A DNA stretch of 64,000 nucleotides. Origin: an uncultured Opitutia bacterium (lineage in GTDB: Bacteria > Verrucomicrobiota > Verrucomicrobiia > Opitutales > Opitutaceae). How positions within the stretch are numbered: the first letter of the stretch is position 1; every line of letters starts with the position of its first letter. Shown piece by piece: positions 13,866 through 22,507 of this stretch. Position numbers and translations under genes: made by a program. The notes beneath the pieces are model-generated. The model worked only from the letters and a program-made list of their open reading frames with translations. It was not told the DNA's origin and ran no database searches. Location: assembly GCA_903900845.1 (NCBI GenBank), contig CAIUOU010000167.1:1-64000 (forward strand). The letters are read 5' to 3'.

Positions 13866-14669
13866 TCAGGTGCGGGCGGTACCGGCGGAAAGGTCCGCCG
13901 CCCGCGCGCCGAGCTTCCCGGGCAGCCCCGCGCGATCGCCGAGATTATCCCGGATGCAGTTCACCAGCGCGCTGCCGACGACCACACCGTCGGCGTGGGC
14001 CGCGACCTCCGCCACCTGGGCCCGCGTGCCGATCCCGAAACCGACCACCGTCGGCAGATCCGTCCGCGCGCGGATGCGCTTCATCGCCTCGGGAATGTTA
14101 CCCGCCACCTGGTCCCGCACCCCGGTCACGCCTTCCCGGGAAACGTAGTAAAGGAACCCCGTCGTGACGGAAGCGATCCGGGCGATCCGTTCGTCCGGGG
14201 TGGTCGGCGCGACGATGAAAACGGTGTCGACCCCGTGTTTTCGGCCGGCCTCCAGCACCTCCCCCGCCTCCTCGGGAGGCAGGTCGAGCGTGAGAATGCC
14301 GTCCACTCCCGCCGCGCGTGCGGCGCCGACGTAGGCGTCGACGCCGTTGGCAAAGACGAGGTTGTAATAGGTGTAGAACACGACCGGCGCGTCGCTGAAT
14401 TCGCGGATACGGCGCACAAGCTCAAAGACGCGCGCCGCGGTCATCCCGCCCTCGAGCGCCCGCTGCGCCGCGAGCTGGTTGGTGAGACCGTCGGCCAGCG
14501 GATCCGAGAACGGCACGCCGAGCTCGAGAATGTCGACTCCGTTGGCGAGCAGCGCGCGGCAGACCTCGACCGACGTCTCGAAGTCAGGGTCGCCCGCGCA
14601 GACATAGGCGACGAAAGCCGCGCGACGCGCGGCGCGGCACTGGGCGAAGACCGGCTGGAGACGGGACAT
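13866..14669 (-). CDS. trpA: tryptophan synthase alpha chain
   Basis: AFVAYVCAGDPDFETSVEVCRALLANGVDILELGVPFSDPLADG; VVFYTYYNLVFANGVDAYV; VVGFGIGT; start set at MSRLQPVF. Confidence 0.95.
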   Translation of the reverse strand: MSRLQPVFAQCRAARRAAFVAYVCAGDPDFETSVEVCRALLANGVDILELGVPFSDPLADGLTNQLAAQRALEGGMTAARVFELVRRIREFSDAPVVFYTYYNLVFANGVDAYVGAARAAGVDGILTLDLPPEEAGEVLEAGRKHGVDTVFIVAPTTPDERIARIASVTTGFLYYVSREGVTGVRDQVAGNIPEAMKRIRARTDLPTVVGFGIGTRAQVAEVAAHADGVVVGSALVNCIRDNLGDRAGLPGKLGARAADLSAGTART

Positions 14670-14733
14670 GGAGGATGCACCGTGGCCGCTCCTGCGCGCG
14701 AAGGAAACCGCAATTTTGCGGCGCGCCGGCGGC

Positions 14734-15504
14734 TCAGAAGGAAAACTCCGCCCAGACCGGCAGATGGTCCGAAAGCAGGGAGGCCACGACCTCGGAGCGC
14801 ACCTCGGTGCAACCCTCGGGCAGGAAAACGAAGTCGAGGGCCCGGCGCGGCAGGGGTGACGGGAAGGTGCGGCCCGCGACCGGATGCAGGGAGTACTCGC
14901 AGTAATCGGAGAGGTGGCTGAGCAGCGACGCGGTGGCGTCGTCCCGCGAACGGGGGTTGTTGAAGTCCCCGCAGATGATCGGGGGGATGGCCCAACGTTT
15001 CCCGTGCAGCCGGTGTTTCTCCCGCAGCCAGTCCACGAGATGGTCGAGCTGCCGCAGCCTTTGCTGCCGCGATCCGAAATGGAGGTGCAGGTTGACGAGC
15101 GGCACGCAGCGACCCGCGACCTCGAGTTCGGCGTAAAGGAAACCCTTCTCGCCGAGCCGCCGCTGGCCGAACACGACCGTCTCCGCGGCGCGGATATCAT
15201 GCCGCGAGAGCAGCGCGTTGCCGTAGGAAAGGTTGATCAGCCCGGACCGCCGGTTGTTGATGCCGAACACCGAATGCGGGAAGCGCGTGTGCACCCGGAG
15301 GTAGTCGAGGTGGTCGAAATTGCCCGCCCAGCTCGAGCGTTCGTCGATCTCCTGCAGCGCCACCACGTCGGGCTTCAGCCGGTCGAGCAGCGCCGCGATG
15401 CGGCGCAGGTTGGCGCGGAGCTTCCGCGGCGTGGTCAGTCCCTGGATCGGGTTCAACCCGCGTCCGTGCGCGATGTTGAACGTGAGCAGGCGAAGTCTCG
15501 GCAT
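14734..15504 (-). CDS. endonuclease/exonuclease/phosphatase family protein
   Basis: LRLLTFNIAHG; DVVALQEIDERS; PPIICGDFNNP; LLSDHLPVWAEF. Confidence 0.9.
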   Translation of the reverse strand: MPRLRLLTFNIAHGRGLNPIQGLTTPRKLRANLRRIAALLDRLKPDVVALQEIDERSSWAGNFDHLDYLRVHTRFPHSVFGINNRRSGLINLSYGNALLSRHDIRAAETVVFGQRRLGEKGFLYAELEVAGRCVPLVNLHLHFGSRQQRLRQLDHLVDWLREKHRLHGKRWAIPPIICGDFNNPRSRDDATASLLSHLSDYCEYSLHPVAGRTFPSPLPRRALDFVFLPEGCTEVRSEVVASLLSDHLPVWAEFSF

Positions 15505-15550
15505 CCCGGGCGGTGAGACTACCGGGCCGACCCGGCGCGGCAAGCCGAGG

Positions 15551-16426
15551 TCACGGCCGCGCGGTGCCGAGAAACCCGCGGTCGCCCAGCCAATCGTGGA
15601 ACCGCGATATCCACGCGCCCGCGGGCCCCTTGTTCGTTTCCCTGACGCCAAAGCCGTGCCCGGCCCCGGCGTAGATATGCAGTTCCGCGGAGGCCCCGGC
15701 GCGCTTCGTCCGGAGATAGAATTCAGCGAGTCCCTCGGAGATGTTCTGCCGGTCCCCGTAACCCGCCGCCAGAAACACGGGCGGCGTGGACTTCGCCACC
15801 TGGATGTCGGTGCGCGGCAGCCCGCCGGGATAGACGAGAGCGTAGAAGTCCGGCCGCGCGTCGAGACGGTCCACCGCGTCGGTCGCCGCGGAGGCGGGGA
15901 CTTCCGGCCGGGTCGCCGCGAGCAGCGCGACCTCACCCCCGGCCGAGAAACCGATGATGCCCACCGCGCCCGGGTTGACTCCCCACTCGGCGGACCGCGC
16001 CCGCACCAGCCGGACCGCTCGCCGCGCGTCGGCCAGGGCGTCGCGATCCACCGTATAGGGCTGGAGCGCGCCCGGGGGCGCGGCGTCATCCTTGGCGAGC
16101 CGGTATTTCAGGACGAAAGCCGCGACCCCCCGCTCGGCGAGCCACCGCGCGACATTCCACCCTTCATGCTGGATCGCGAGCCGCGCATGGCCGCCGCCCG
16201 GCGCGACAATCACCGCGCAGCCCGTCGCCCGGCCCGCTTCCGGCAGGTGCACGGTGAGGGAGGGATGGTGGATGTTCGAAAGGTTGGACCCGGCGGTCTT
16301 TTCCGGCTCGGCACGACGCTCGACGGAACCAGGGGCGCCGGTCGGCCAGAGGGGCACCGCCTCGGCCGGTTCAGCCCCCGCCAGAACACCGGCGCCGGCC
16401 AGCCAAAATACAAACGCGGCACGCAT
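15551..16426 (-). CDS. alpha/beta hydrolase (acetylxylan-esterase-like)
   Basis: Signal peptide; oxyanion VAPGGGHARL; nucleophile elbow GIIGFSAGGEVALL; GAGHGFG. Confidence 0.9.
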   Translation of the reverse strand: MRAAFVFWLAGAGVLAGAEPAEAVPLWPTGAPGSVERRAEPEKTAGSNLSNIHHPSLTVHLPEAGRATGCAVIVAPGGGHARLAIQHEGWNVARWLAERGVAAFVLKYRLAKDDAAPPGALQPYTVDRDALADARRAVRLVRARSAEWGVNPGAVGIIGFSAGGEVALLAATRPEVPASAATDAVDRLDARPDFYALVYPGGLPRTDIQVAKSTPPVFLAAGYGDRQNISEGLAEFYLRTKRAGASAELHIYAGAGHGFGVRETNKGPAGAWISRFHDWLGDRGFLGTARP

Positions 16427-16440
16427 GACCCGGGCCGCCT

Positions 16441-16911
16441 TCAGGAACCGACCTTCGGGGCGGGCTTGGCGGCCACGTCGGGCGCGGCTCCCGGCTCGCC
16501 GCGCTTCTCCTTCTCCCGGCGCACGCGTTCGCGCATCTCCTGCCGCATCTTGTCGAGCTTCGAGCGCTGAACGGGGGTGAGCACGGCGGCCACATCCTCG
16601 TACATGCGTTCCGTGGTGCGGGAGGTGTCGGCCAGGTGCTCCCGCTGCATGCGTTGCAGATCCTCGGCCGCCCTCGCGACGATCGGCGTGATCGCCTTTT
16701 GCTGCTCCGCGGTCGGATTCAACCGCTGCGTGAATTGACGCATGAGCTGCGGATAGATCCTCCCTCCCGGCTCCTTGGCGGCCTGCTTGGCCGCCTTGCC
16801 CGCGCGCTCCGGAGCCCCGTCCGCCGACCGCAGGCTGAAAACCCCGCCGAAAATCGCGCCCGCGATGAAGACGCCGACAAACGCGAGGATGACCTTCCAA
16901 GGGCGGTCCAT
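16441..16911 (-). CDS. membrane-anchored periplasmic Spy/CpxP/CnrX-like sensor
   Basis: Single N-terminal TM (VILAFVGVFIAGAIFGGVFSL), helical periplasmic region with LNPTAEQQ and LTPVQRSKL (LTxxQ-type). Confidence 0.7.
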   Translation of the reverse strand: MDRPWKVILAFVGVFIAGAIFGGVFSLRSADGAPERAGKAAKQAAKEPGGRIYPQLMRQFTQRLNPTAEQQKAITPIVARAAEDLQRMQREHLADTSRTTERMYEDVAAVLTPVQRSKLDKMRQEMRERVRREKEKRGEPGAAPDVAAKPAPKVGS

Positions 16912-16913
16912 GG

Positions 16914-17225
16914 TCAGTCCGCGAGGGCGAGCACGACCGCGACCGTGTCGTTGAGACCGAGCAGATCGTCGCCGGATCCGAACCAGAGGCCGTCACCCAG
17001 GCCGATGGCGAGGCTGAGGACCGCCACGAGACCGGCGAGGCCGACGGCGCGAAGCGCGAAGGCTTCGAGCAGGGCGCGGCCATCGGGGGCGACCGCCAAT
17101 CCGAGCGCCGCCACGCGCGTGGCGAATCCGAAGGGCGCGGCCTCGGGCGGCGTTTCGCCGGCTGGGCGGGCCGCGCGGGCGAGGCGCGACCATGCCGAGA
17201 GCGGACCGGATGATGCGGATTTCAT
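16914..17225 (-). CDS. single-TM small protein in anti-sigma position (103 aa)
   Basis: ATGA overlap with the ECF sigma gene upstream; one C-terminal hydrophobic segment AVGLAGLVAVLSLAIGLG; about 60 aa N-terminal soluble part. Confidence 0.6.
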   Translation of the reverse strand: MKSASSGPLSAWSRLARAARPAGETPPEAAPFGFATRVAALGLAVAPDGRALLEAFALRAVGLAGLVAVLSLAIGLGDGLWFGSGDDLLGLNDTVAVVLALAD

Positions 17226-17821
17226 GATTTTTCCCTCCTCTTAAGCTCCTGGAATAATTTCTGCAACTTGCGCCGGGCCCGGAAGGCCCGGACTTTGACC
17301 AGCGACTGGTTCCACCCCGTCGCGGCCGCGATTTCGGCGATGCTGCGCTGCTCGAGGTCGAGCATGCGCACCACGAGCTGGTCCTCAGGCTTGAGCTGGG
17401 AAAGAAGCTTGTGGACCAGTTCGCGGGCGGCGAGCGCGTCGTTCGCGGCGACCTCGTTCTCGCTGGTGAGCACGGCGTCGAGGACCTGCGCCTCGTTCTC
17501 GGACAAGTCGGCCCAGCGGAACTCCGGCCGGCGCCGTTGCGCCCGCAGGTGGTCGATGCAGGTGGTCACCGCGATCCGCGACACCCAATGCGTGAAGGGT
17601 ACGGCCCCCTGGTACTGTCCGAGCCGGGAGAACATTTTCAGGAAAACCTCCTGGCAGAGATCCTCCTCGGCGACGCGCCGCGGCAGATGCGCGCGCACGA
17701 TGCGGACCACCAACGGGTAGAGGTGCTCCACCAGTTCCCGCGCCGCCTGCTGGTCGCGACGGCGCACCCGCTCGAGACACGCCGCCACGTCGATGGGCGG
17801 CGGGTCGACGGCGTCGGGCAT
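17222..17821 (-). CDS. ECF-type RNA polymerase sigma factor
   Basis: DLCQEVFLKMFSRLGQYQGAVPFTHWVSRIAVTTCIDHLRAQRRRPEF (region 2) and LKPEDQLVVRMLDLEQRSIAEIAAATGWNQSLVKVRAFRARRKLQKL (region 4). Confidence 0.95.
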   Translation of the reverse strand: MPDAVDPPPIDVAACLERVRRRDQQAARELVEHLYPLVVRIVRAHLPRRVAEEDLCQEVFLKMFSRLGQYQGAVPFTHWVSRIAVTTCIDHLRAQRRRPEFRWADLSENEAQVLDAVLTSENEVAANDALAARELVHKLLSQLKPEDQLVVRMLDLEQRSIAEIAAATGWNQSLVKVRAFRARRKLQKLFQELKRREKS

Positions 17822-18178
17822 CCGGCTATCGATGCAAGGGTGATCACGTCACGCAAGACGCGGCTTGGTGGAGCGGGTTACAGGAGCGCGCCGCGCCCGC
17901 GGACGGCGGAAAACCCGGCGACAGACCGCCGGTCCGGGCGCGGACCTTGACTTCAGGTTGACGCCGCCGCTACCTCTCCGCGCCCATGGCAACGCGGCCG
18001 CCAGCCCTTCGACTTACGAGCGCGCACGACCTCTGAGCAGCCGTTCGCGGCGGGTCGTGCGTGGGAGCCCCGCGCGCCGGAAATCCGGTCCGCGTCGTGT
18101 CAGCCAAAGACCGTTTCTTCACGGGAACGGACCGTAGACCGCCCTCAACCAACCACTTTGTCAGTCGATTTCCCGGCC

Positions 18179-19846
18179 ATGCAACCCGCCCCTGTCACCA
18201 AGTACCGGCCTTTCCCGCCGGTCCACCTCCCCGACCGCCAGTGGCCGTGCCGCACGCTCACGCGCGCGCCGCTCTGGTGCAGCGTCGACCTGCGGGATGG
18301 CAACCAGGCGCTCGCCCAGCCGATGAGCGTGGAGGAGAAGCTGGAGTACTTCGCGATGCTTGTGCGCATCGGCTTCAAGGAGATCGAGGTCGGCTTCCCC
18401 AGCGCCTCGCAGATCGAGTTCGATTTCTGCCGGCGCCTGATCGAGGGAGGGCTCATCCCCGACGACGTCGCCATCCAGATCCTCTGCCAGTGCCGCGAGG
18501 AACTGATCGTGCGCAGTCTCGAGGCGCTCCGCGGCGCCCGGCACGCCATCTTCCACCTCTACAACTCCACCTCGCCCGCGCAGCGACGCCATGTCTTCAA
18601 CGCCTCACGCGACGACATCCGCCGCATCGCCGTGCAGGGCACCGCGTGGGTGAAACGCCACTCGGCTCCGCTGATCGCCGCCGGCACCCGCCTGCGCCTC
18701 GAGTACTCGCCGGAGAGCTTCACCAGCACCGAGCTGGATTTCGCCCTCGAGGTCTGCGAGGCCGTCACCGACGCTTGGGGACCGACCGTCGAGGACAAGA
18801 TCATCCTGAACCTGCCGGCGACGGTGGAGTACGCCACGCCCAACGTGCATGCCGACCAGATCGAGTGGATGTGCCGCCGCCTCACGCGGCGCGACCGCAC
18901 GCTGGTGTCGCTCCACACCCACAACGATCGGGGCACCGGCGTCGCCGCGACCGAGCTCGCGTTGCTCGCCGGCGCCGACCGCGTCGAGGGCACGCTCTTC
19001 GGCAACGGCGAGCGCACCGGCAACCTCGACGTCGTCACCGTCGCCCTGAACCTTTACACCCACGGCATCCACCCGGGCCTCGACTTCGGCGACATCAACG
19101 GCCTCCGCGAGGTCTACGAGCGCTGCACCCGCCTGGAGGTGCCGCCGCGCCAGCCCTACGCCGGCGAGCTCACCTTCACGGCCTTCAGCGGTTCCCACCA
19201 GGACGCCATCAAGAAATCCTGGGCCGCCCAGAAGGCCGGCGAGCCGTGGGATGTGCTCTACATCCCGATCGACCCGGCCGACATCGGCCGCAGCTACCGC
19301 GCGATCATCCGTATCAATGCCCAGTCGGGCAAGGGTGGCGTCGCTTACGTGCTGGAGAACGAGTTCGGCTACTGCCTGCCGAAGGCGATGCACAAGGAAA
19401 TCGGCCGCATCGTGAACGATGTCGCCGACGCCAAGGGCACCGAGCTTCCGCCGGCCGAGATCCTCGAGGTCTTCCGCCGCGAGTACCTCGACCGGACCGA
19501 GCCGGTTTCCCTCCGCCACTTCAAGAGCACCGAGAGCGACCACGCCGTGAACTGCGAGGCGGATCTCGTCATCGACGGAACCGCGCAACGCCTCACCGGA
19601 GCGGGCAACGGCCCGATCGACGCGTTCACCCGCGCGCTGGCATCGACCGCGCTGCCGCGCCTGGAAGTGCTCAGCTACGCCGAGCACTCGCTCGGGCAGG
19701 GCTCCGAGGCTCGCGCCGTGAGCTACATCCAGATCCGCACCGACCGCGGCCAGTCCCTCTTCGGCGCCGGTATCGACACCAACATCGAGCTCGCGTCGAT
19801 CAAGGCGATCATCAGCGCCCTCAACCGCGCCTTGGCGCCGGACTGA
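18179..19846 (+). CDS. leuA: 2-isopropylmalate synthase (long LeuA type)
   Basis: WCSVDLRDGNQALAQPM; EIEVGFPSASQIEFDF; SLHTHNDRGTGVAATELALLAGADRVEGTLFGNGERTGN; C-terminal LeuA dimer/regulatory domain; a TTG 21 nt upstream is also possible. Confidence 0.95.
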   Translation: MQPAPVTKYRPFPPVHLPDRQWPCRTLTRAPLWCSVDLRDGNQALAQPMSVEEKLEYFAMLVRIGFKEIEVGFPSASQIEFDFCRRLIEGGLIPDDVAIQILCQCREELIVRSLEALRGARHAIFHLYNSTSPAQRRHVFNASRDDIRRIAVQGTAWVKRHSAPLIAAGTRLRLEYSPESFTSTELDFALEVCEAVTDAWGPTVEDKIILNLPATVEYATPNVHADQIEWMCRRLTRRDRTLVSLHTHNDRGTGVAATELALLAGADRVEGTLFGNGERTGNLDVVTVALNLYTHGIHPGLDFGDINGLREVYERCTRLEVPPRQPYAGELTFTAFSGSHQDAIKKSWAAQKAGEPWDVLYIPIDPADIGRSYRAIIRINAQSGKGGVAYVLENEFGYCLPKAMHKEIGRIVNDVADAKGTELPPAEILEVFRREYLDRTEPVSLRHFKSTESDHAVNCEADLVIDGTAQRLTGAGNGPIDAFTRALASTALPRLEVLSYAEHSLGQGSEARAVSYIQIRTDRGQSLFGAGIDTNIELASIKAIISALNRALAPD

Positions 19847-19936
19847 CCCCGGCGTCGCCCTCCTCCTGCCCGGCTTGGACTGTCCGGGCGGGCGTTCCGT
19901 TGTCGCGCGCGGCGCGGCGCGCCCTATTCCAGGATC

Positions 19937-22507
19937 ATGCGCCTCTTCGCCCTGCCCGCGTGGCTGCTCATGCTCGCCCTCTCCGTCATGGTCCGCGCGG
20001 CGGGTTCGCCGTGGCCGGAAATCACCCGGGAGAACAAGCCGTGGACGCGCTGGTGGTGGCCGGGCAGCGCGGTGGACCGCGCGAGCCTGACGGCCCAATT
20101 GGAGCAACTGGCCGCCGCTGGTCTCGGCGGCGTGGAGATCACGCCGATCTACGGTGCGAAGGGCGGCGAGTCGCGCTACCTGAATTTTCTCTCGCCGGAG
20201 TGGATGGCGATGCTCGAGCACGCCGGGCGCGAGGCGCGACGCCTCGGCCGCGGCGTCGACATGGCGACGGGCACCGGCTGGCCTTTCGGCGGCCCCTGGA
20301 TCGATGAGACCCATGCGTTGCAGCGCGCCGTGCTGCGCGAGGGGCGCGTGGCCGGCGAACCAGGCCGCATGATGGTCAAACGCGCGGCGCCGGGCGGCGA
20401 GGGGCTCGTCGTGGATCCCTTCTCCACCACCGCGCTGGAAAAGTACCTAGCGCCGTTCGACCGCGCTTTCGCGGCCTTCCCCCGCGATCTCGTGCGCGGG
20501 CAATTCCATGATTCCTTCGAGTACTTCAACGCGAGCTGGACGAGCCGTCTGCCCGAAGTTTTCCGGCAAAGGCACGGCTACGATCTGCAGGAGTACGCGG
20601 CGGAACTGCTCGCGCGGGACCCGGCCGCGGTGACGAGGATCGACCGCGAAACCCTCGCCCGCGTGAAGGCCGACTACCGCGAGACGTTGGGGCTCCTTCA
20701 CCTCGATTACCTGCGGGCCTGGGTGGCCTGGTCGCACCAGCGGGGCTGGAAGGTGCGCAACCAGTCGCACGGAGCGCCCGCCAACCTCCTCGACCTTTAC
20801 GGCGCGGTCGACATCCCGGAGACGGAGATCTTCGGCTCCACCCCGTTCCCCATCCCCGGACTGCGCCGCGAGGCGGACGAGGTGCGGCACGACCAGGATC
20901 TGCCCGAGCCGCTGGTGGTGCGCATGGCGTCGTCCGCCGCCCACGTGATGGGCCGCCCGCTCGCCTCGAGCGAGAGCGCGACCTGGCTGCGCGATCACTG
21001 GAAAGAGTCCCTCGCCTACGTGAAGCCCGAGTTGGACCGCATCCTCGTCGAGGGCATCAACCACATCTTCTACCACGGCACTGTCTTCTCCCCGCGGGAC
21101 GCCCCGTGGCCCGGCTGGCTCTTCTACGCTTCCACGCAATTCAACCCGAACAACACCTGGTGGCGCGACTTCGCGGAGCTCAACCGCTACGTGGCCCGCG
21201 TGCAGTCGGTGCTGCAGCGGGGACGGCCCGACAACGACCTCCTGCTCTACTGGCCCGCGGCGGACGTCTGGGACGACCCGAAGGGGCTGGCGAAGACGCT
21301 GACGGTCCACCATGTCGGGTGGCTGACGGAGGAACCGGCGGGGAAACTCGCGCGCGTCCTCGGGGAGCGGGGCCACACGTTCGACTACGTCTCCGACGGG
21401 CAGCTCGCGGCGACCCGCGTCGAGAACGGCGCGCTCGTGACTCCCGGCGCGCGTTATCGCGCGCTCGTGGTGCCCGCGTCACGCCGGATGCCGGAGTCGA
21501 CGATGCGGCGGATCGCGGATCTCGCGCAGGCCGGCGCCGAGGTGATCCTCGAGCGCCTGCCGGAGGATGTGCCCGGCCTCGGCCGGCTCGCGGAACGCCG
21601 GGCCGAATTCCAAGCGGCGCGCGCGGCGGCGACGAAGGCGGGCGTGACCGTCGCACCCGATGTCACCGCCGCGCTCGCCCCGGTGGCGCGGCGCGAGGCC
21701 CTCGCCACGGCCGGACTTCATTTCATCCGCCGCGCGACGGAGCACGGGCACGACTACTTTGTCGCCAACCTCGGGGCCCGGGGGCACCGCGGATGGATCC
21801 CGATCGCGGAAGCCGCGGACCTGCTGGTGATGGACCCGCTCGACGGCGGCACGGGGCTCGCCCCGCGGCGGCCGGCGGCGGCCGGCGGGAACGAATTCCT
21901 GCTGCACCTCGAACCCGGAGAGTCCCTCGTGCTGCGCGGGACCCGCGCGTCGGCCACCGGGGCGGGGCCCCGGCCGCCGACGGAACCGGCGGGAACGCCG
22001 GTGGCGCTTCGGGGCGAGTGGCGGGTGGAGTTCATCGCCGGGGGGCCGGAGCTGCCGCCGCCGTTCACAACCGCGATCCTGAAAACCTGGACGGAACCGG
22101 GTGGAGAGGCCGCGCAACGCTTCGGCGGGACGGCGCGCTACACCCTCGAGTTCGACGCGCCGGCCGTTCCCGCCGACGATTGGCGGCTGGATCTGGGCGA
22201 CGTACGGGAGAGCGCGCGCGTGACCATGAACGGGACGCCGGCCGGAACCGCCTGGTCCGTGCCGTTCCAGTTGCGCGTCGGCCCGCTGCTCCGTCCCGGG
22301 CGCAACCGCCTTGAGATCGAGGTGACCAACCTAGCGGCCAACCGCATCCGCGATCTCGACCGCCGGAAGGCGGCCTGGAAGGTCATGCGCGAGATCAATT
22401 TCGTGAACATCAACTACCAGACCTTCGACGCCGCAGGCTGGCCGTTGACCCCCTCGGGCCTCCTCGGCCCGGTGACGCTCACCCCGCTGCGCGCCGCGCG
22501 CCCGTGA
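19937..22507 (+). CDS. GH106-like alpha-L-rhamnosidase / glycosyl hydrolase
   Basis: PWTRWWWPGSAVDRASLTAQLEQLAAAGLGGVEITPIYG; RRLGRGVDMATGTGWPFGGPWID; VEGINHIFYHGTVFSP; C-terminal beta-sandwich-like galactose-binding module. Confidence 0.85.
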   Translation: MRLFALPAWLLMLALSVMVRAAGSPWPEITRENKPWTRWWWPGSAVDRASLTAQLEQLAAAGLGGVEITPIYGAKGGESRYLNFLSPEWMAMLEHAGREARRLGRGVDMATGTGWPFGGPWIDETHALQRAVLREGRVAGEPGRMMVKRAAPGGEGLVVDPFSTTALEKYLAPFDRAFAAFPRDLVRGQFHDSFEYFNASWTSRLPEVFRQRHGYDLQEYAAELLARDPAAVTRIDRETLARVKADYRETLGLLHLDYLRAWVAWSHQRGWKVRNQSHGAPANLLDLYGAVDIPETEIFGSTPFPIPGLRREADEVRHDQDLPEPLVVRMASSAAHVMGRPLASSESATWLRDHWKESLAYVKPELDRILVEGINHIFYHGTVFSPRDAPWPGWLFYASTQFNPNNTWWRDFAELNRYVARVQSVLQRGRPDNDLLLYWPAADVWDDPKGLAKTLTVHHVGWLTEEPAGKLARVLGERGHTFDYVSDGQLAATRVENGALVTPGARYRALVVPASRRMPESTMRRIADLAQAGAEVILERLPEDVPGLGRLAERRAEFQAARAAATKAGVTVAPDVTAALAPVARREALATAGLHFIRRATEHGHDYFVANLGARGHRGWIPIAEAADLLVMDPLDGGTGLAPRRPAAAGGNEFLLHLEPGESLVLRGTRASATGAGPRPPTEPAGTPVALRGEWRVEFIAGGPELPPPFTTAILKTWTEPGGEAAQRFGGTARYTLEFDAPAVPADDWRLDLGDVRESARVTMNGTPAGTAWSVPFQLRVGPLLRPGRNRLEIEVTNLAANRIRDLDRRKAAWKVMREINFVNINYQTFDAAGWPLTPSGLLGPVTLTPLRAARP

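Follow-up and report, generated by a model that had tools for sequence, protein, structure and literature searches.

INTRODUCTION

The known systems closest to the locus analysed here include the CnrYXH system of Cupriavidus metallidurans and the copper YXH modules of sphingomonads, in which an ECF sigma factor is controlled by a single-TM anti-sigma factor of about 90-100 aa with a minimal cytoplasmic part and by a membrane-anchored periplasmic sensor. CnrH is wrapped by a pair of CnrY helices, of which the first lies on one of sigma4 and sigma2 and the second on the other (PMC7406223). Periplasmic chaperones of the Spy family are known as an envelope-stress output of the Cpx and Bae systems, with an LTxxQ protein, CpxP, as sensor or modulator; these are two-component systems, unlike the sigma/anti-sigma arrangement considered below.

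The closest experimental parallel is the cirYZ-spy operon of Phocaeicola vulgatus, where an ECF sigma factor, its anti-sigma factor and a Spy-like protein share one operon, the sigma factor induces both its own operon and spy, and expression of cirY, of spy and of two downstream genes rises when the anti-sigma gene is deleted (PMC13114119). This likeness is one of description and reaches across to the Bacteroidota; moreover, the operonic Spy-like protein of our locus is membrane-anchored, and soluble Spy genes lie elsewhere in the genome. An RpoE8 operon of Azospirillum brasilense is described as encoding, one after another, an ECF sigma factor, a hypothetical protein and a periplasmic heavy metal sensor (PMC12826043), and so resembles our gene order, again by description only. 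A full-text literature search found no study of such signalling in the bacterial group to which our locus belongs.

RESULTS

The sigma-B-C cassette and its conservation

The window, meaning the whole 64,000-nucleotide stretch analysed, comes from an uncultured Opitutia bacterium of the Opitutaceae (contig CAIUOU010000167.1) and contains the following features.

15551-16426, minus strand: secreted alpha/beta-hydrolase (DLH/BD-FAE), 14 nt past C
16441-16911, minus strand: C, a 156-aa inner-membrane-anchored periplasmic LTxxQ/Spy-like protein, candidate sensor
16914-17225, minus strand: B, a 103-aa single-TM protein with a conserved core next to the TM, candidate anti-sigma factor
17222-17821, minus strand: ECF sigma factor, 199 aa, matching Sigma70_r2, r4_2 and TIGR02937
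17854-17882, minus strand: putatively autoregulatory ECF promoter, its core present in 80/80 loci

The sigma stop codon and the ATG of B overlap by 4 nt (ATGA). A sigma-based scan of genome contigs gave 80 related loci, named Opitutaceae, Opitutae or Verrucomicrobia, and the order sigma-B-C is kept in all 81 of these Opitutaceae-type loci when the window is counted, so the arrangement is not a product of chance. The same layout extends to distant B loci fetched from other families of the class, whose members live in soil and water: in 40/40 the B gene directly follows an ECF sigma gene and is itself directly followed by the gene of an LTxxQ-like protein. The original prediction, made from the letters of the window, was thus borne out in its coordinates, strands, overlap and single TM of B, in its expectation of synteny among relatives, and in its view of the locus as a three-gene CnrYXH-type ECF module of sigma factor, small TM protein and anchored periplasmic protein.

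Domain searches of the sigma factor returned Sigma70_r2 (6.5e-15), r4_2 (2.9e-12) and TIGR02937 (1.4e-27); the protein carries regions 2 and 4 only, as an ECF-type factor does, and is the most conserved of the three, with 69-94% identity to the window across 28 aligned relatives. Sigma matches on Rhizobium and Microvirga plasmids were set aside, as their NrsF/DUF1109 partners represent a different architecture. The 4-nt overlap of B with sigma recurs in nearly all loci. A profile of B matches 106 of 120 Opitutaceae genomes, nearly always in one copy, while weaker matches, at one to three copies per genome, extend to numerous other families in the class. The regulator is therefore near-universal and usually single-copy in Opitutaceae, with repeated paralogues in the other families. 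With a wider profile, B-like proteins were also seen in other classes of the phylum (five genomes, E down to 5e-17).

In most relatives the cassette is flanked by leuA (57/76 testable loci) and dnaX (63/75 testable loci), and a bacterial small SRP RNA lies just downstream of C, before dnaX, in 6/6 loci tested; positions 14000-20000 of the window, unlike these relatives, gave no Rfam match. A secreted alpha/beta-hydrolase gene stands directly 3' of C both in the window and in one relative locus (L002), and is probably a lineage-specific extension of the operon. In five relatives the start of C overlaps or abuts the stop of B, a layout in which translation of the whole trio may be coupled.

A promoter shared by the operon and Spy-like genes

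A GTAAC-N16/17-CGTC core is found upstream of sigma in 80/80 loci, with the consensus TGTAACC-N16-CGTCTTGC, and because of this the sigma factor probably drives its own operon; the own promoter expected of an ECF factor is thus present as a sequence motif, with an AAC-type -35 and a CGT-type -10. In the window, the -35 TGTAACC occupies 17876-17882 and the -10 CGTCTTG 17854-17860, with 16 nt between TGTAAC and CGTC and 32 nt to the sigma ATG. At a slightly wider spacer range the core occurs 86 times in all on both strands of the 1.28 Mb that these loci comprise, only six of them beyond those of sigma. Most distant sigma genes are likewise preceded by a GTAACC-type -35 (34/45 at p<0.05), the -10 being CGTC, TGTC, GGTC or CGTT. 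This promoter, and the Spy-like regulon described next, had been missed by the original prediction.

When the strict motif was searched for in 120 genomes of the family, it gave 54 sites against 19 for a reversed-pattern control. Judged by position and reading, 36 of these lie at the sigma gene; among the remaining 18, seven stand in front of genes for secreted LTxxQ-like proteins, at a distance of 12-55 nt, and two in front of genes for secreted EF-hand proteins; six of the seven LTxxQ-like proteins exceed the Pfam cut-off. For an independent check, a profile was made of the soluble Spy-like proteins, its matches in 61 genomes were collected, and the DNA preceding each gene was scored with a matrix derived from sigma promoters only. 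Outside the six discovery loci, the motif was found at p<0.05 for 20/24 soluble Spy-like genes with that of the window's own genome included, a count that is strictly 19 significant among 23 independent genes, as the own-genome protein formed a row of that profile and the promoter of its gene had already been inspected. The mean score upstream of these genes was 12.7 on the forward strand versus -6.1 on the reverse (Wilcoxon p=4e-7).

In the window's own genome the soluble Spy gene carries CGCAACT-N16-CGTCTTGC 57 nt before its start, and an EF-hand gene has a near-consensus copy of the motif; the relaxed pattern TGTAAC-N15-17-CGTC gave 12 sites there versus 7 for the control, mostly within genes. 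Five small secreted EF-hand proteins elsewhere were seen to have TGTAAC or TGAAAC-N16/17-CGTC promoters. EF-hand genes may form a second class of targets, or may be targets of a related ECF sigma factor. On these promoter statistics, our best reading is that the output consists of soluble Spy-type chaperones together with some secreted EF-hand proteins.

Protein B as a candidate anti-sigma factor

Protein B has a hydropathy peak at residues 56-74, its single TM, preceded by a cytoplasmic core of the form W-x2-L...AR...P-x-GF-x2-R (residues 12-37) and followed by a short periplasmic tail of about 25 residues. The alignment shows W12, L15, R20, P31, G33, F34, R37 and D93 as conserved; the GFxxR-type motif occurs in 81/81 proteins, W..L in 78/81 and D93, in the tail, in 77/81. 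Searches of Pfam, NCBIfam and PDB with B returned no match, and the HxxxCxxC motif of zinc-type class I anti-sigma factors (ZAS) is present in 0/81 B proteins and in none of 45 distant homologues.

CnrY- and CnrX-like sets were assembled from pMOL28 and twelve sphingomonad copper loci. The 35-residue cytoplasmic core of B weakly resembles the CnrY-like proteins of the sphingomonad modules (hhalign probability 83%, E=9e-6), and CnrY alone was not significant against the B profile (2.4%). The original prediction that B has no recognisable classical anti-sigma domain therefore stands as far as Pfam and NCBIfam domains go, and is qualified by this weak CnrY-like resemblance. Taken from its sequence features, B is best read as a candidate minimal CnrY-like anti-sigma factor of class II.

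Protein C belongs to the LTxxQ/Spy family

Protein C has an N-terminal TM at residues 7-25 and two LTxxQ-type motifs; two L[TSAKN]xxQ motifs are found in 67/81 C proteins. Its conserved residues are F15, G18 and G22 within the TM, together with Q70, L111 and Q115, which are invariant in the 55 aligned proteins, and the TM motif F-x2-G-x3-G is present in 80/81. Assignment of the 156-aa protein to the LTxxQ family, as first proposed, was upheld by its relatives: Pfam LTXXQ (PF07813) is matched by 38/55 members of the alignment (best 1.9e-7), with the window protein alone falling under the cut-off (16.4 vs 24.3 bits). The window C is recovered at E=4.1e-11 by the soluble Spy-like profile, and profile-profile comparison gives 4e-19, so the candidate sensor and the output belong to one family. 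The AF2 model of C is all-helical (mean pLDDT 82.9). Foldseek of this model against PDB gave no match at E<=0.001, NccX appearing only at E=6.8, while the C HMM matched PDB Spy at E=0.0024. We regard C as a candidate periplasmic sensor, which is our best reading of these features.

DISCUSSION

Proposed circuit

It seems likely that sigma-B-C is a circuit responding to protein-folding stress in the cell envelope. Sequence statistics back the conservation of the operon, its promoter, the sharing of that promoter with Spy-like genes and the kinship of C with Spy. In the resting state, the cytoplasmic segment of B, of about 50 residues, would keep the sigma factor sequestered at the membrane by two short helices, in the manner of CnrY and CnrH. 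Anchored next to B and exposing a Spy-like domain to the periplasm, C would maintain B in its sigma-holding state, the coupling probably running through packing of the TM segments (F-x2-G-x3-G) and the short conserved periplasmic tail of B. We infer that the signal engaging the Spy-like domain is envelope protein in an unfolded state or some comparable insult; C would then let go and B would free sigma, the direction of C's action being part of the same proposal. Freed sigma would transcribe its own operon from the TGTAACC-N16-CGTCTTG promoter and, from promoters of the same type, the soluble periplasmic Spy/LTxxQ genes and some secreted EF-hand genes, two steps for which the promoter counts argue. 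Free Spy-like chaperone would then take up the clients and close the loop.

A broader proposal, which we put forward tentatively and hold to be possible rather than probable, is that this is a class-wide verrucomicrobial ECF envelope-stress pathway in which sensor and induced chaperone are paralogues, the sensor being tethered to the membrane, and in which soluble Spy competes with this sensor for identical unfolded clients, titrating the response off. If the circuit works as proposed, minimal CnrY-like anti-sigma factors and LTxxQ sensors would serve envelope proteostasis besides the metal resistance in which they are known, and the pathway would offer a clean case of sensor and output drawn from one chaperone family. 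For the regulator, the analysis supplies a specific function that can be tested, together with a promoter and a regulon.

Alternative explanations

The original prediction spoke of an envelope or metal-sensing switch, and a CnrYXH-like working, in which C binds a metal ion and frees sigma for metal efflux, would fit the shared three-part architecture (in the order Y-X-H there and sigma-B-C here), the weak resemblance of the B and C profiles to CnrY- and CnrX-type proteins and the match of Pfam Metal_resist to 20/55 members of the C alignment. For C this similarity is to the CnrX-like set, at 91% probability over the TM and first LTxxQ segment, CnrX alone being not significant against the C profile. 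The CnrX-like set conserves H40, H44, E61, H117 and M121, positions which we take to be the metal ligands of CnrX, and these have no counterpart in C: the CnrX-type HxxxH occurs in 0/81 C proteins, 16/81 lack any His beyond the TM and 76/81 lack Cys. By this test the module would work in a CnrYXH-like manner and C would not be a metal sensor of the CnrX kind. Nor are metal efflux or resistance genes linked to the cassette, whose neighbours are leuA, the SRP RNA and dnaX, and the motif-bearing targets encode Spy-like and EF-hand proteins. The metal part of the prediction is consequently unsupported, with a metal switch now very improbable, and the envelope part is retained as the best reading, given the motif before Spy-like genes. 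Scarcely any weight attaches to the idea that B is an unrelated small membrane protein and no anti-sigma factor at all. It could draw on the lack of any domain match and on two results for the sigma-B pair, which count against the proposed circuit as well: the AF2 model of a sigma-B chain that occurs naturally as an in-frame read-through (L130) was confident for sigma and left residues 217-239, including B's second helix, at pLDDT <50, and MI covariation, with relatedness left in, exceeded that of permuted pairings and was unfocused on cytoplasmic B (24 of the top 50 vs 22.9 expected). Against it stand the coding overlap with sigma, the conserved core adjoining the TM, the resemblance to CnrY-like proteins and the invariable place of B as second gene in the distant cassettes.

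Two further alternatives concern C and the regulon. C might be an output chaperone or accessory, with B alone sensing stress, as could be so in the Bacteroidales cirYZ-spy operon, where spy is simply co-transcribed with the sigma/anti-sigma pair (PMC13114119); the homology of C to soluble Spy proteins would suit this too. C nevertheless retains a TM anchor with a conserved glycine motif and always shares its operon with B, the output is supplied by soluble Spy genes located elsewhere under promoters of their own, and the tail of B is short for a sensor. We consider this explanation unlikely, while giving it some credence, and keep C as the candidate sensor. AAC/CGTC-type promoters are common among ECF factors, so the Spy-like and EF-hand genes might instead answer to another ECF sigma factor with similar -35 and -10 preferences, leaving the present one to drive its own operon only; the occurrence of TGAAAC in place of TGTAAC before some EF-hand genes would agree with this. 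The Spy-gene promoters, on the other hand, match the matrix of this sigma factor's own promoters, including TGTAACC and CGTCTTG, and loss of B and loss of soluble Spy tend to coincide, which makes a separate sigma factor distinctly unlikely: in a hand-compiled table, Opitutaceae genomes lacking B more often lack soluble Spy as well (Fisher p=0.02).
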